From an uncultured Agrobacterium sp. (lineage in GTDB: Bacteria > Pseudomonadota > Alphaproteobacteria > Rhizobiales > Rhizobiaceae), in assembly GCA_913777615.1 (NCBI GenBank), contig CAJYTK010000009.1:1-64000 (forward strand): a DNA stretch of 64,000 nt. The letters run 5' to 3'. This document shows positions 12,630 through 16,806 of the stretch, one piece after another. The notes beneath the pieces were generated by a model that saw only the letters and a list, made by a program, of their open reading frames with translations, was not told where the DNA came from and searched no databases. Within the stretch, counting starts at the first letter, position 1; each line of letters opens with the position of its first letter. The translations under genes and the position numbers were made by a program.

Positions 12630-12918
12630 GACTGGTCTTCCTCGCCAAAAGGCTGATGTAAGCGTGGCGCGGTGGGGCAAAAGCCGCCGCCTGCGCGTGT
12701 GTGACACACTATTGGCTGAGGCAGCCCGCTCTTTCAAGCCTTTGGCGTCGCACGATCCCATGGCAACGCTGCCCGCTACTATTCCCGCCCGGCATGAATT
12801 GATGACGATATGTCGATGGTCAGCGATGAAGCGCCGCGATAGAGTTTTCGCCAAAGGGCGCTTCTTCGCGCCCAACCGCCTGCCCGGCAACTCTGCCTCA
12901 TGATTGTGGATGCCTCCG

Positions 12919-14202
12919 ATGTATAACGATCCCCGCTCGCATGGCCTTTGGGAAAAGACCGCTCCGCCACCGCCGCAAACGCGCGCGCTGGAAGGGGATG
13001 TGACGACGGATGTGGTGATCGTTGGCGGTGGCTTTACCGGCCTTTCGGCGGCCCTTCATCTGGCGGAACGCGGCATCAAGTGCATCGTGCTGGAAGGCAA
13101 GGAGATCGGCTTTGGTGGCGCTGGCCGCAATGTCGGCCTCATCAATGGCGGCATGTGGGTGATGCCGAAGGAGTTGCCCAATGTGCTGGGCCCCGTCTAT
13201 GGCGACCGCCTGCTGGACCTTCTGGGCAACGCGCCCTTCCTGGTACGAGAGATCATCGAGAAACATGAGATTGCCTGCGAACTGGAAAAGAACGGCACGC
13301 TGCATTGCGCCGTCGGCGAAGCGGGGCTAACCGAAATTCGCGAGCGCTGCGACCAATGGGCCGCGCGCGGCGCGCCGGTGCGCATCCTCAGCGCCGAGGA
13401 AACCGCAAGGCGGGTCGGCACGACCGGCTACACGGGCGCGCTTCTGGATGAACGCGCCGGAACGCTGCAGCCGCTCGCCTATGTGCGCGGACTGGCCAAC
13501 GCCGCACTGAAGGCGGGCGCCATCATCCACACGGCAAGCCCCGTGCATGCGACGGAAGCGAATGGCGAAGGCTGGACGGTACGCACCGATCGCGGCTCCG
13601 TCTCGGCGGGCTGGATCATCGTGGCGACGGAAGCCTACAGCGAAGGCCCGTGGAAGATCATCCGCGAGGAGCAGGTCTACCTCCCCTATTTCAACTTCGC
13701 CACCCGGCCGCTCGGCGATAATCTCGCCAAGTCCATTCTGCCTGGCCGCGAAGGCTGCTGGGACACCAAGGAAATCCTCTCCTCCTTCCGCATGGACAAG
13801 GCCGGCCGCCTCGTCTTCGGCAGCGTCGGCGCACTTCGCAACACAGGCGCTAGCGTCCATCGCGCCTGGGCCAAACGCGCGCTCAAACGCCTTTTCCCGC
13901 AGCTTGGCGATGTGGAGTTCGAATGCGAATGGTACGGCCAGATCGGCATGACCGACAACGCCGTCCCCCGCTTCCACCGCTTCGCCAAGAACGTCGTGGG
14001 CTTCTGCGGCTATAACGGCCGCGGCATCGCACCGGGCACCACCTTCGGCAAAACACTGGCAGCCCATGTGGCCGGCGAGATCACCGAAAGCGACCTGCCG
14101 CTGCCGGTTTCAGAGCCCAAGGCGCAGAGTTTGAGGGCGCTGAAGGAGGCCTATTATGAGGCGGGTGCGCAGGTGGCGCATTTTGCGGGTGAGCGGTTTT
14201 AG
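12919..14202 (+). CDS. FAD-dependent amine/amino acid oxidase-like oxidoreductase (DAO family)
   Basis: A 427-residue flavoprotein. The N-terminal Rossmann motif is VVIVGGGFTGLSAALHLAERG, split here as VVIVGGGFTG plus the following helix. The C-terminal FAD-contact region has GFCGYNGRGIAPGTTFGK, as in the DadA/SoxA/PuuB group. The opening YNDPRSHGLWEKTA resembles gamma-glutamylputrescine oxidase-like proteins, so an amine or modified amino acid is the probable substrate. Possible starts are TTG 12904, ATG 12910 and ATG 12919; the last gives the most family-like N terminus, but none has a strong ribosome-binding site. It is cytosolic, with no transporter or regulator adjacent. Confidence 0.85.
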   Translation: MYNDPRSHGLWEKTAPPPPQTRALEGDVTTDVVIVGGGFTGLSAALHLAERGIKCIVLEGKEIGFGGAGRNVGLINGGMWVMPKELPNVLGPVYGDRLLDLLGNAPFLVREIIEKHEIACELEKNGTLHCAVGEAGLTEIRERCDQWAARGAPVRILSAEETARRVGTTGYTGALLDERAGTLQPLAYVRGLANAALKAGAIIHTASPVHATEANGEGWTVRTDRGSVSAGWIIVATEAYSEGPWKIIREEQVYLPYFNFATRPLGDNLAKSILPGREGCWDTKEILSSFRMDKAGRLVFGSVGALRNTGASVHRAWAKRALKRLFPQLGDVEFECEWYGQIGMTDNAVPRFHRFAKNVVGFCGYNGRGIAPGTTFGKTLAAHVAGEITESDLPLPVSEPKAQSLRALKEAYYEAGAQVAHFAGERF

Positions 14203-14349
14203 GAATTACAACGATGCACGCTTGGCTGATATAGTTTGGACAGAACGATAAGGAAAGTAAAAACCTCGAACAGTCTGATAGCGGTCCGTCACGCGACTTT
14301 AGATCGCTTTGGCGGGCCTCATTCCTACCCTGAACTCGCTTAACTCGGC

Positions 14350-15120
14350 TCAATCGTCAAACAAGTCCTTTGGGCGAGGGGGTGGCACTAACGGCGCTTC
14401 TCGCCTACGACGCTCCGCATCTTCGGCCATTTCCTTCAACAAAATTTGACGGGCTAGGTCTCGGGAGGTCAAGAATATTCCGACCGCATCATTAAGATCA
14501 TGATCGCTCAAAAGATCATAATCGCCTCTGTTCCAAACCTCTGGTGCCCGCTTTAACTCCACGCCGTTATCGACTTTTGGAAAGAACAAAAACTCAGCCG
14601 GGGAGCTCTGATAATCAGTGAGTGACAGAAATGCGTCCTCGCATATCGTAACAAGCAGCCGCCGCTGAAAGTTAGTGAGGTTGAGCTCACTCCAGCCGCA
14701 TACAAACAGCGGAACAAGTTTTCCCCGTTCTATAATAACACTTAACGGAGACACGGGGACCGCCACATCTCGTGAAATACGAAACCATTCCTTATCGAAC
14801 TCGACGAAGCGATGCGCCGCGTATCGACGGTCGTCGTCATGTTCAAAAAAGCATCGAATTAGGGCTTCGTTCTGCTTCCGCCCCGCAGGAGCGCCAGAAC
14901 GAGCCGCTACAGCAAGTGCCGTCTCCATATCTATGCCGAGCTGGATTCGGTCTCTAATAGCAGTGTAGCCAGTTGCATAAGTAAAACGAGGTGAACCTTT
15001 TACGAACGATACGATCGATTTCGTGGTACTAGCCACATCGTCTTGAACGAAGCGAACCCAGTTAGGCCCGGAAGGCGGTCTGTCAAGCTTCGCAATTAGC
15101 TTCAAATAGTCGAATGCCAT
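14350..15120 (-). CDS. Unrecognised protein coupled to a Panacea antitoxin; candidate toxin
   Basis: A 256-residue soluble protein with no signal peptide, membrane segment or motif that I can name. It is mixed alpha/beta: a middle block RFVEFDKEWFRISRDVAVPV, a hydrophobic stretch LVPLFVCGWSELNL, and a charged C-terminal tail with RRRREAPLVPPPRPKDLFDD. Its ATG shares one base with the stop of the upstream Panacea-domain gene (TGATG), so the two are translated together, in the antitoxin-then-toxin order common for Panacea pairs. GC content, by eye near one half, is lower than in neighbouring genes, which suggests horizontal arrival. The toxin role is inferred from position only. Confidence 0.6.
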   Translation of the reverse strand: MAFDYLKLIAKLDRPPSGPNWVRFVQDDVASTTKSIVSFVKGSPRFTYATGYTAIRDRIQLGIDMETALAVAARSGAPAGRKQNEALIRCFFEHDDDRRYAAHRFVEFDKEWFRISRDVAVPVSPLSVIIERGKLVPLFVCGWSELNLTNFQRRLLVTICEDAFLSLTDYQSSPAEFLFFPKVDNGVELKRAPEVWNRGDYDLLSDHDLNDAVGIFLTSRDLARQILLKEMAEDAERRRREAPLVPPPRPKDLFDD

Positions 15121-15605
15121 CAGTGCTTCACCGTTCTTTCGTACCAGCTCTTAATTGCCTCATCCGAAATCCTCATTGAGGCATTCGTTCTTGTCTCATG
15201 ATTCCACGTTTGATCCCACGGTCCGCCCTCAAGGTGAGATTGAGCGACGAGTACTCCTGGCGCCATAGAGGCATACTTTGCCGTAAGCTCGCGTAGAAAT
15301 TCTTCCTCTTCTGCAGCGAACTTCCATTCTGCCCTCTGCTTTTGTCCTGTATTGGGGTCTAACCACCTAGCCCTCCCAACTATAGGTGCATCACCATACT
15401 GTTTGAACTCACGGTACAATTCGCGGAATACGGGGCCGTAGGTCCAAGCTTCGATCTTCGCTGATACTAAAGGCCGCGAGAAAGCAGCGAGAAAGTCTGC
15501 ATGCAAAAAATAAACAATCTTATTGATGTGCAGATTGGAGACGACCCTGCCTTCCTCCTCTGCAACATCAAGAACGAAGTTGGCGACCGCACGAACATCA
15601 TACAT
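15120..15605 (-). CDS. Panacea/SocA-like (DUF4065) domain antitoxin
   Basis: A 161-residue protein with the layout of the Panacea (SocA/GepA) domain. It starts MYDVRAVANFVLDVAEEEG, then has NLHINKIVYFLHADFLA, the characteristic AWTYGPVFRELYREFK, and ends with a helix around RISDEAIKSWYERT. Members neutralise structurally unrelated toxins encoded beside them; SocA of Caulobacter is a proteolytic adaptor for its toxin. This protein has the bare domain with no added DNA-binding region. It is the first gene of a two-gene operon, and expression presumably starts in the AT-rich spacer at 15606-15700. Confidence 0.82.
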   Translation of the reverse strand: MYDVRAVANFVLDVAEEEGRVVSNLHINKIVYFLHADFLAAFSRPLVSAKIEAWTYGPVFRELYREFKQYGDAPIVGRARWLDPNTGQKQRAEWKFAAEEEEFLRELTAKYASMAPGVLVAQSHLEGGPWDQTWNHETRTNASMRISDEAIKSWYERTVKH

Positions 15606-15970
15606 GGCTTAAATTACTTGATTCACAATTTGTTCACAACTCTGCACTGAATTATCCCCAACTTGCGCACTTTTACCTAAATAAAAAAAGAAACGTCTCA
15701 TCTTTGGGAGAAGATGTCATCCGCCGGTACGCGGCAATCCAGTTTTGCAGCAGCCATCCTGGCCAGCGAGGCTCGCTAGAACTGACTAGCAGATAACTTG
15801 TCTACTCAGAATGGCAAATTTTCGGAAAACGTCAGTAAGCGGCTTTAATCAACCCTCTGTTGACGGCTTCGGAGGCGAGGCTCAAGTGGCATAAACGGGA
15901 AACCACCGAAGCGTTCTCGATCATATGCCAGCGCTATATCCTTGCAAACATAACCCCCATCCGTTACCAC
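15606..15970. other. AT-rich intergenic spacer at the edge of the low-GC islet
   Basis: No gene is supported. The first 100 bases are AT-rich and probably carry the leftward promoter of the antitoxin gene. The remainder has short open frames without coding character, possibly eroded sequence from an earlier insertion. I found no direct repeats that mark insertion ends. Confidence 0.4.
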
Positions 15971-16011: not shown

Positions 16012-16806
16012 ATGACATTCCACCGCCGCATCATCCTGAAAACCGCCGCATGGGCCATCGCCGCCGCGTGCATTGTGGCACCCGCCCTTTCCTCCCCGGC
16101 GCTGGCCGCGGAGAAGGTCACTGTCTTTGCTGCGGCCAGCATGAAGAATGCGCTGGATGCGGCTAATGCCGAATTCGCCAAGGAGAGCGGCGATGAGGTT
16201 GTGGTGTCCTATGCCGCAAGTTCGGCGCTGGCAAAGCAGGTTGAGGCGGGTGCGCCGGCGGATGTTTTTATTTCGGCGGATCTGGCCTGGATGGATTATC
16301 TGGCGGGCAAGGGGCTGATCAGGGAAGACACGCGGAGCAATCTTCTGGGCAACCGCCTCGTTCTGGTTGCGCCTGCGGCGAGCGCCAAGCCGGTGGAGAT
16401 CCAGCCGGGGTTTGATCTTTCGGCTCTCGTGGGCAACGGCAAGCTTGCCATGGGAGCGGTGGATTCCGTGCCGGCGGGCAAATATGGCAAGGCGGCGCTG
16501 GAGAAGCTTGGGGTCTGGTCTGCGGTTTCCGGCAAGGTGGCGGGGGCGGAAAGTGTGCGCGCGGCGCTGCTCCTGGTCTCGCGCGGGGAAGCGCCCTATG
16601 GCATCGTCTACCAGACGGATGCGGCGGCTGATCCCGGCGTGAAGATCGTCGGCACCTTTCCGGAAGATTCGCATCCACCGATCATCTATCCCGTCGCGAT
16701 GCTGAAGGATGCCAAAAGCCCGGCAGCGGCGGCCTATCTGGAATTTCTGAAATCGGCCAAGGCAGCGCCCTTCTTCGAGGCCCAGGGCTTTACGGTTCTG
16801 AAGTAA
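16012..16806 (+). CDS. modA: Molybdate ABC transporter, periplasmic binding protein
   Basis: Captures molybdate or tungstate in the periplasm and delivers it to ModBC. The 264-residue precursor has a signal peptide cut near ALA-AEK at about residue 33. The mature N terminus VTVFAAASMKNALDA and the VVVSYAASSALAKQVEAGAPADVFISAD region are typical, the latter here cited as YAASSALAKQ and GAPADVFISAD. Later blocks include KLAMGAVDSVPAGKYGK and the ATP-independent hinge GIVYQTDAAAD. It is the first gene of the mod locus, but 462 bases filled by repeats separate it from modB, which is unusual for this operon. Confidence 0.95.
   Translation: MTFHRRIILKTAAWAIAAACIVAPALSSPALAAEKVTVFAAASMKNALDAANAEFAKESGDEVVVSYAASSALAKQVEAGAPADVFISADLAWMDYLAGKGLIREDTRSNLLGNRLVLVAPAASAKPVEIQPGFDLSALVGNGKLAMGAVDSVPAGKYGKAALEKLGVWSAVSGKVAGAESVRAALLLVSRGEAPYGIVYQTDAAADPGVKIVGTFPEDSHPPIIYPVAMLKDAKSPAAAAYLEFLKSAKAAPFFEAQGFTVLK

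Follow-up and report, generated by a model that had tools for sequence, protein, structure and literature searches.

A likely SocAB-type toxin-antitoxin module of a divergent clade in an uncultured Agrobacterium sp.

Introduction

In Caulobacter, the toxin SocB poisons replication at the beta sliding clamp (PMC5422525, PMC9690074, PMC4470285, PMC12795458, PMC7566177), and one paper presents it as the earliest toxin shown to act on this target (PMC12795458). SocB attaches to the clamp by way of the standard clamp-binding motif, which in bacteria reads QL(S/D)LF (PMC9690074), and its antitoxin, SocA, delivers it to ClpXP (PMC5422525). Other Panacea antitoxins form complexes with their toxins and neutralise them without ClpXP and Lon, and the PanAT dataset of the same paper holds 88 clusters, SocB being cluster T10 (PMC8832971). 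Here, we analyse two adjoining genes, encoding a 161-residue Panacea protein and a 256-residue protein, in a stretch of 64,000 nucleotides (the window; positions 1 to 64,000 of contig CAJYTK010000009.1, assembly GCA_913777615.1) from an uncultured Agrobacterium sp. An initial annotation, made from the sequence without database searches, took the pair for a possible toxin-antitoxin system whose second gene might encode a new type of toxin. Our analysis makes it likely that the two genes together make up a toxin-antitoxin module of SocAB type, belonging to a divergent clade, with a clamp-blocking toxin built on a dead-nuclease body.

Results

The 256-residue protein as a remote homologue of SocB

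As the initial annotation had anticipated, ordinary searches give the 256-residue protein no name. At E values of up to 10, it is matched by no family of Pfam, NCBIfam, PADLOC or PHROGs, and the NCBIfam SocB model (NF047746, SocB_toxin; cut-off 210 bits) fails to detect it at the same limit. tblastn returned nothing from plasmids (E up to 0.01) or phages (E up to 1), and the best hit of a sequence search of the PDB had an E value of 0.67. A RelA/SpoT-like or Fic identity was rejected, there being no match to these families in Pfam or NCBIfam. When the PDB was searched with profile A3, built from the clade of the 256-residue protein, an intermediate clade and six other sequences, 12 sequences were retrieved; the best of these (E 2e-4) were designed helical proteins, and the hits were dismissed as helix-composition matches.

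Relatives of the protein lie beside relatives of its antitoxin. Besides the 161-residue gene itself, six loci in 385 genomes of the class match the SocA model at 140 bits or more (L003-L007, L009), and each is followed directly by a gene of 232-257 codons. Named genomes were scanned with eight SocA-like proteins, and the best 80 of 545 relatives, the near end of the family, were kept; 79 of these 80 loci have a downstream open reading frame (ORF), while L065 stops at the antitoxin. With the partners of L102, L106 and L112 set aside as being of another kind or poorly chosen ORFs, 84 partner proteins were compared (76 from named genomes, seven from class genomes and the 256-residue protein), two of which, L005 and L103, are apparently one sequence seen via two collections. 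Linked by blastp (E < 1e-5 over at least 100 residues), 81 of the 84, including the 256-residue protein, form one connected group. Within it, our protein shares 75% identity with the copy in G013 (a second species of the genus), 35-54% with seven relatives from records of Bradyrhizobium, Sphingopyxis, Ancylobacter, Rhizobium, Aureimonas and an uncultured Rhizobiaceae group bacterium, and 16-24% with the intermediate clade, whose eleven members include a Caulobacter sp. record.

In the family alignment, A5, the SocB model recognises 58 of 79 sequences at E up to 0.1, the best of them at 2.4e-96, and it scores the canonical member L059 at 317 bits. Toward the clade of the 256-residue protein this signal fades: three of four bridging proteins tested are matched (6.8e-5, 3.6e-5 and 0.004), and a single one of five clade-mates tested (L036, 13.6 bits, E 0.026). 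Profile-profile comparison closes the gap, as hhalign aligns the nine-sequence clade of the 256-residue protein with 29 strict canonical SocB sequences over 201 columns at E 9.3e-7, where a reversed control profile reaches 0.54 and five column-shuffled ones 0.25-0.79. A one-sided hidden Markov model of the same 29 sequences lists the intermediates and leaves the 256-residue protein unlisted at E up to 10. A broader SocB profile does find it (E 1.1e-7 in the set of 84 proteins); that profile contained the intermediate-clade sequence L042 and remote members, and we rely on the strict hhalign comparison instead. In the reverse direction, profile A3 retrieves from G153 (E 1.2e-8) a gene that the SocB model scores over its cut-off. 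Neither the SocA nor the SocB model has a match in the Caulobacter vibrioides genome of the control set, and the founding SocB thus lies outside these comparisons.

Collectively, the connected blastp family and the profile-profile match identify the 256-residue protein, on sequence grounds, as a remote SocB homologue missed by single-model annotation, rather than the new toxin type that had been proposed. That no family library recognises it is what an unrelated Panacea-partnered toxin would lead one to expect. Such a toxin would have to share with SocB not only these two sequence links, but also a similar predicted fold, the same gene order and a SocA-type antitoxin, and we find it barely credible. 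The best 80 of 545 relatives indicate that known SocB is one clade of a wide family, mostly alphaproteobacterial judging from record titles, other clades of which the present SocB model misses or scores below cut-off.

Three partners fall in a separate blastp group outside the main 81 (L073, L097 and L110, from Bradyrhizobium and Hyphomicrobium records). They are of similar size and end in (I/L)DLF(R/K)K(K/R), and L110 matches the broad SocB profile at 4.5e-4; perhaps they are a still more distant SocB clade.

Association of the toxin with a Panacea partner

Whether the toxin gene is widespread without a Panacea partner had been set in advance as a test of the pair, and the outcome did not go against the pair. 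Among the 385 class genomes, profile A3 finds four loci and NF047746 five, seven of them distinct; all seven adjoin a SocA match, and none is an orphan. Neither profile picks up the SocB-like partner at L009, so their sensitivity is incomplete. Matches to the SocA model NF047745 occur in 64 of the 385 genomes (E up to 0.001), yet there are only seven loci with a SocB-profile match, and most SocA-model matches in the class were rejected as SocAB for want of one. Several of the weaker SocA matches are followed by short proteins that look membrane-spanning by eye (for example at L011, L012 and L017-L020).

The two genes also diverge together. A mirror-tree comparison of 79 pairs gives a correlation of r 0.915 between antitoxin and toxin distances, a value reached in 0 of 2000 permutations, although plain joint descent would give the same; the nearest neighbour is identical for antitoxin and toxin in 43 of the 79 pairs. 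Mean pairwise identity is 21% among the toxins and 39% among the antitoxins. The order antitoxin-toxin is kept in related pairs from named genomes, and the -1 spacing of the two genes recurs in L033, L034, L035 and the G013 copy. Co-occurrence, gene overlap, correlated divergence and kinship to SocA all favour the part of the initial annotation that saw a toxin-antitoxin pair with a Panacea antitoxin; the novelty of the toxin is the part that found no support.

Similar pairs were seen in viral sequences. The antitoxin alignment led to 229 viral relatives; of the best 80, eight have an ORF that a SocB profile matches at E up to 0.01, and two of these eight, at 0.005, are doubtful, leaving about six viral SocAB. 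SocB-family ORFs occur on the viral contigs L178, L179, L180, L182, L184 and L190, which also carry SocA-like genes. Judged by these profile matches, SocAB is also present on phages or prophages. One further locus, L010 (G443:C67), has a SocA-like gene of 111 residues overlapping a SocB frame that apparently lacks its N-terminus, and is a broken or misassembled copy.

The putative antitoxin and its short tail

The 161-residue protein passes the Pfam family SocA_Panacea (PF13274; 58.5 bits, cut-off 25.7). Against the NCBIfam model SocA_antitoxin (NF047745), it scores 158.1 bits, the match covering positions 1-157 of the 176 in the model, under the cut-off of 190 bits. The difference from canonical SocA is sharpest at the C-terminus. 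Counted from an invariant isoleucine (I151 in the 161-residue antitoxin), exactly 10 residues follow in nine of nine antitoxins paired with the clade of the 256-residue toxin, 14 in 11 of 11 from the intermediate clade, and 26-46 (median 27) in 29 of 29 strict canonical antitoxins. The canonical tail reads ...GEP..D..P... or similar in most of 12 tails inspected. Because our antitoxin lacks this canonical SocA C-terminal tail, ClpXP-dependent (type VI) neutralisation cannot be assumed for the clade. If the tail contributes to delivery, we hypothesise that the clade would be type II.

A candidate clamp-binding motif

Canonical SocB carries an internal loop that reads Q-x-[DE]-[LM]-F or similar, with Q-x-x-[LMV] in 24 of the 28 strict members whose region is intact (L062 set aside). 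Near this position the 256-residue protein reads IQLGIDM, and a glutamine stands at or near it in only two of the nine clade members.

Motif-like ends are enriched at the C-termini of the family. We counted patterns, devised after the tails had been seen, in 76 distinct 16-residue C-termini (L041, L062 and L089 omitted as truncated or odd ends). A strict Q motif occurs in eight tails, compared with a mean of 0.2 (maximum 2) after shuffling and 0.3 (maximum 3) in internal windows. The looser pattern [DEQGSPNKT][LFI][FLI] occurs in 58 (shuffled 13.9, maximum 23; internal 21.5, maximum 32), and a third, Q.{1,3}[LFI][FWLI], in 17 (shuffled 2.3, maximum 8; internal 4.1, maximum 13). Ten of the 11 intermediate-clade tails have Q-x-x-[LF]-[FIW] (QLSLI, QPSLF, QFDLF) and the eleventh has QISFNF; in the clade of the 256-residue protein, seven of nine tails end in xLF or in xLF plus a few residues. 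The protein's own tail, PKDLFDD, has the DLF without the motif glutamine, and in the model this end is of low confidence, with no helix or strand. From these patterns we infer a clamp motif whose place varies by clade: some carry it in the tail, while the canonical clade has it in the internal loop, either additionally or alternatively.

The lack of the glutamine in the tail, its rarity at the internal position, and an identity of just 11-21% to the partners of four SocA genes over the NF047745 cut-off could also mean that the target has changed. The fold and the pairing with the antitoxin would then have been kept, the toxin would act elsewhere than on the clamp, and the C-terminal LF would be a remnant or a protease tag. 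The family-wide excess of xLF-type ends over shuffled expectation, and the motif kept almost throughout the intermediate clade, make this unlikely in our view.

Predicted fold and catalytic residues

The model of the 256-residue protein (predicted local distance difference test score, pLDDT, 91.8) and that of one canonical SocB both resemble PD-(D/E)XK nucleases of the RecB/Dna2/MGME1 type, and the former is predicted to have the RecB-type core fold. Its structural matches include AddA, Dna2, RecE and MGME1, and clamps recruit nucleases; both would suit an active nuclease toxin that still cuts DNA and uses the tail simply to be recruited to the clamp. The residues such an enzyme would need are hard to find. 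The family alignment has no conserved D ... (D/E)-x-K triad: if a column must be filled in at least 60 of the 79 rows, D57 is the single position with 70% D/E or more, and no column has as much as 70% K, and the family-wide acidic pair and lysine are thus missing from an alignment so divergent that misalignment can hide conserved columns. In the 256-residue protein itself, mapped by inspection, the positions at which a hairpin of this kind is expected to hold catalytic residues are occupied by P/S, V/F and G. We therefore hold an active nuclease to be most improbable. Comparison of the SocB profiles with 30 AddB PDDEXK_1 domains by hhalign gave no signal.

Based on the models, SocB is probably a dead nuclease turned clamp plug. 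Among the titles and abstract openings of open-licence PMC papers that our searches listed, we found no description of SocB as a nuclease fold. The predicted fold offers a hypothesis for the origin of SocB, as a nuclease that lost its active site.

Genomic setting and distribution

Both reading frames described by the initial annotation, a bare Panacea protein overlapping a 256-residue gene by TGATG, are present on the minus strand (Table 1). So is the lower-GC islet it reported between the flanking genes: G + C content is 0.495 in 14208-15931, against 0.644 and 0.629 in the flanking genes and 0.595 in the whole window.

Table 1. Coordinates of the gene pair, its sequence elements and its surroundings in the window
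Feature	Position	Strand	Basis
SocA-like Panacea antitoxin gene, 161 residues	15120..15605	minus	PF13274 and NF047745 matches
Divergent SocB-family toxin gene (putative), 256 residues	14350..15120	minus	blastp family, hhalign, model and fold matches
TGATG, shared by the antitoxin stop codon and the toxin start codon	15118..15122	minus	sequence; translational coupling inferred
C-terminal tail KDLFDD, candidate clamp-binding element	14353..14370	minus	family-wide enrichment of such ends
Low-GC islet between flavin adenine dinucleotide (FAD) oxidoreductase gene and modA	14208..15931	no strand	boundaries from G029 and G009 matches
Left flank, FAD-dependent oxidoreductase gene (named by inspection)	12904..14202	plus	ORF
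Right flank, molybdate-binding protein gene modA (named by inspection)	16012..16806	plus	ORF

In two close relatives, G029 and G009, the alignment to the window breaks off after 14207 and resumes at 15932, and some 3.0 kb of different DNA fills the gap. No convincing repeats were found at the islet borders, and counts of promoter-like sites (4; shuffled mean 1.7) and terminator-like sites (3; shuffled mean 2.6) in the islet were uninformative.

A query for the FAD-oxidoreductase/modA site was matched in 39 of 39 genomes of the genus, with the oxidoreductase near modA in 37 of the 38 others; in G010, only the modA side was matched. The flank blocks are 159-419 bases apart in 31 of these 38 genomes and 1.0-3.0 kb apart in six (G015, G033, G028, G446, G029 and G009), five of whose enlarged sites were retrieved (L136-L140). 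Their contents differ. G029, with flanks 94-95% identical, has a HARE-HTH gene and two genes with sub-threshold matches, one to HEAT and one to YfdX, and the insert of G009 equals that of G029 in size. G028 and G446 have alike sets of glutathionylspermidine-synthase, DUF1190 and DUF350 genes (families tested for G028), and G033 has a histidine phosphatase and a gene of unknown kind. The junction is a cargo site that holds different gene sets. The toxin gene is found in only two of the 39 genomes, and in G013, which has the second copy, socAB occupies a different genomic location. Because of this patchy presence, the separate location of the G013 copy and the variable contents of the site, the pair fits a module acquired horizontally at a variable site.

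In G029, the place of socAB is taken by three minus-strand genes (L136:718-3111) for a HARE-HTH protein of 309 residues, a HEAT-like protein of 372 residues and a 150-residue protein with a hydrophobic end; possibly this set is a defence or toxin-antitoxin system of its own. Beyond the pair, an imperfect inverted repeat lies between modA and the next, permease-like gene (16910-17001/17158-17249; 92-nucleotide arms, 78% complementary, 156 nucleotides apart).

Discussion

We propose a mechanism in which the toxin, when not neutralised, would fill the hydrophobic cleft of the DNA polymerase sliding clamp with its C-terminal tail, canonical SocB using also or instead its internal Q-x-[DE]-[LM]-F loop. 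Occupancy of the cleft would shut out the polymerase and repair proteins and lead to fork collapse. The nuclease-like body would serve as a catalytically dead scaffold and as a surface for the Panacea antitoxin, which would neutralise the toxin by binding it.

A wider scenario, which we offer tentatively and as somewhat less than probable, would make SocB a family of dead RecB-type nucleases in which the clamp motif has moved between internal loop and C-terminal tail and the antitoxin tail has changed in step. Clades whose antitoxin has no such tail, the present one included, would then rely on direct binding for neutralisation (type II) rather than on handover to ClpXP (type VI), one homologous module having switched type. 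In either event, natural variants of this kind separate two questions, that of the clamp-binding motif and that of the part of the antitoxin needed for protease delivery. If the predicted toxicity is true, the family would be a set of evolved binders of the clamp cleft, which has been discussed as an antibacterial target.

How does this locus compare with the systems already described? With the type VI SocAB system of Caulobacter crescentus (NF047745/NF047746), it shares the gene order, a SocA-like antitoxin, a homologous putative toxin of similar length, a clamp-motif-like element and a predicted fold like that of the canonical member. It differs from SocAB in falling under the NF047745 cut-off and having no NF047746 match, in lacking the canonical internal Q-x-[DE]-[LM]-F loop and bearing its candidate clamp motif in the C-terminal tail, and in an antitoxin that ends 10 residues past I151, compared with at least 26 in the 29 strict canonical ones. 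From nucleases of the RecB/Cas4/MGME1/Dna2 type, the toxin is set apart by having neither a recognisable triad nor profile similarity to AddB nuclease domains. As in the PanAT systems, a Panacea antitoxin adjoins a toxin gene; unlike the clamp target proposed here, the verified PanAT toxins, as excerpts of that study present them, target translation, membranes or, in one case, chiefly transcription (PMC8832971). Closer in its target is RipA, a clamp-targeting toxin of Streptococcus pneumoniae, for which suppressors are reported in the same clamp pocket as for SocB (PMC12795458).
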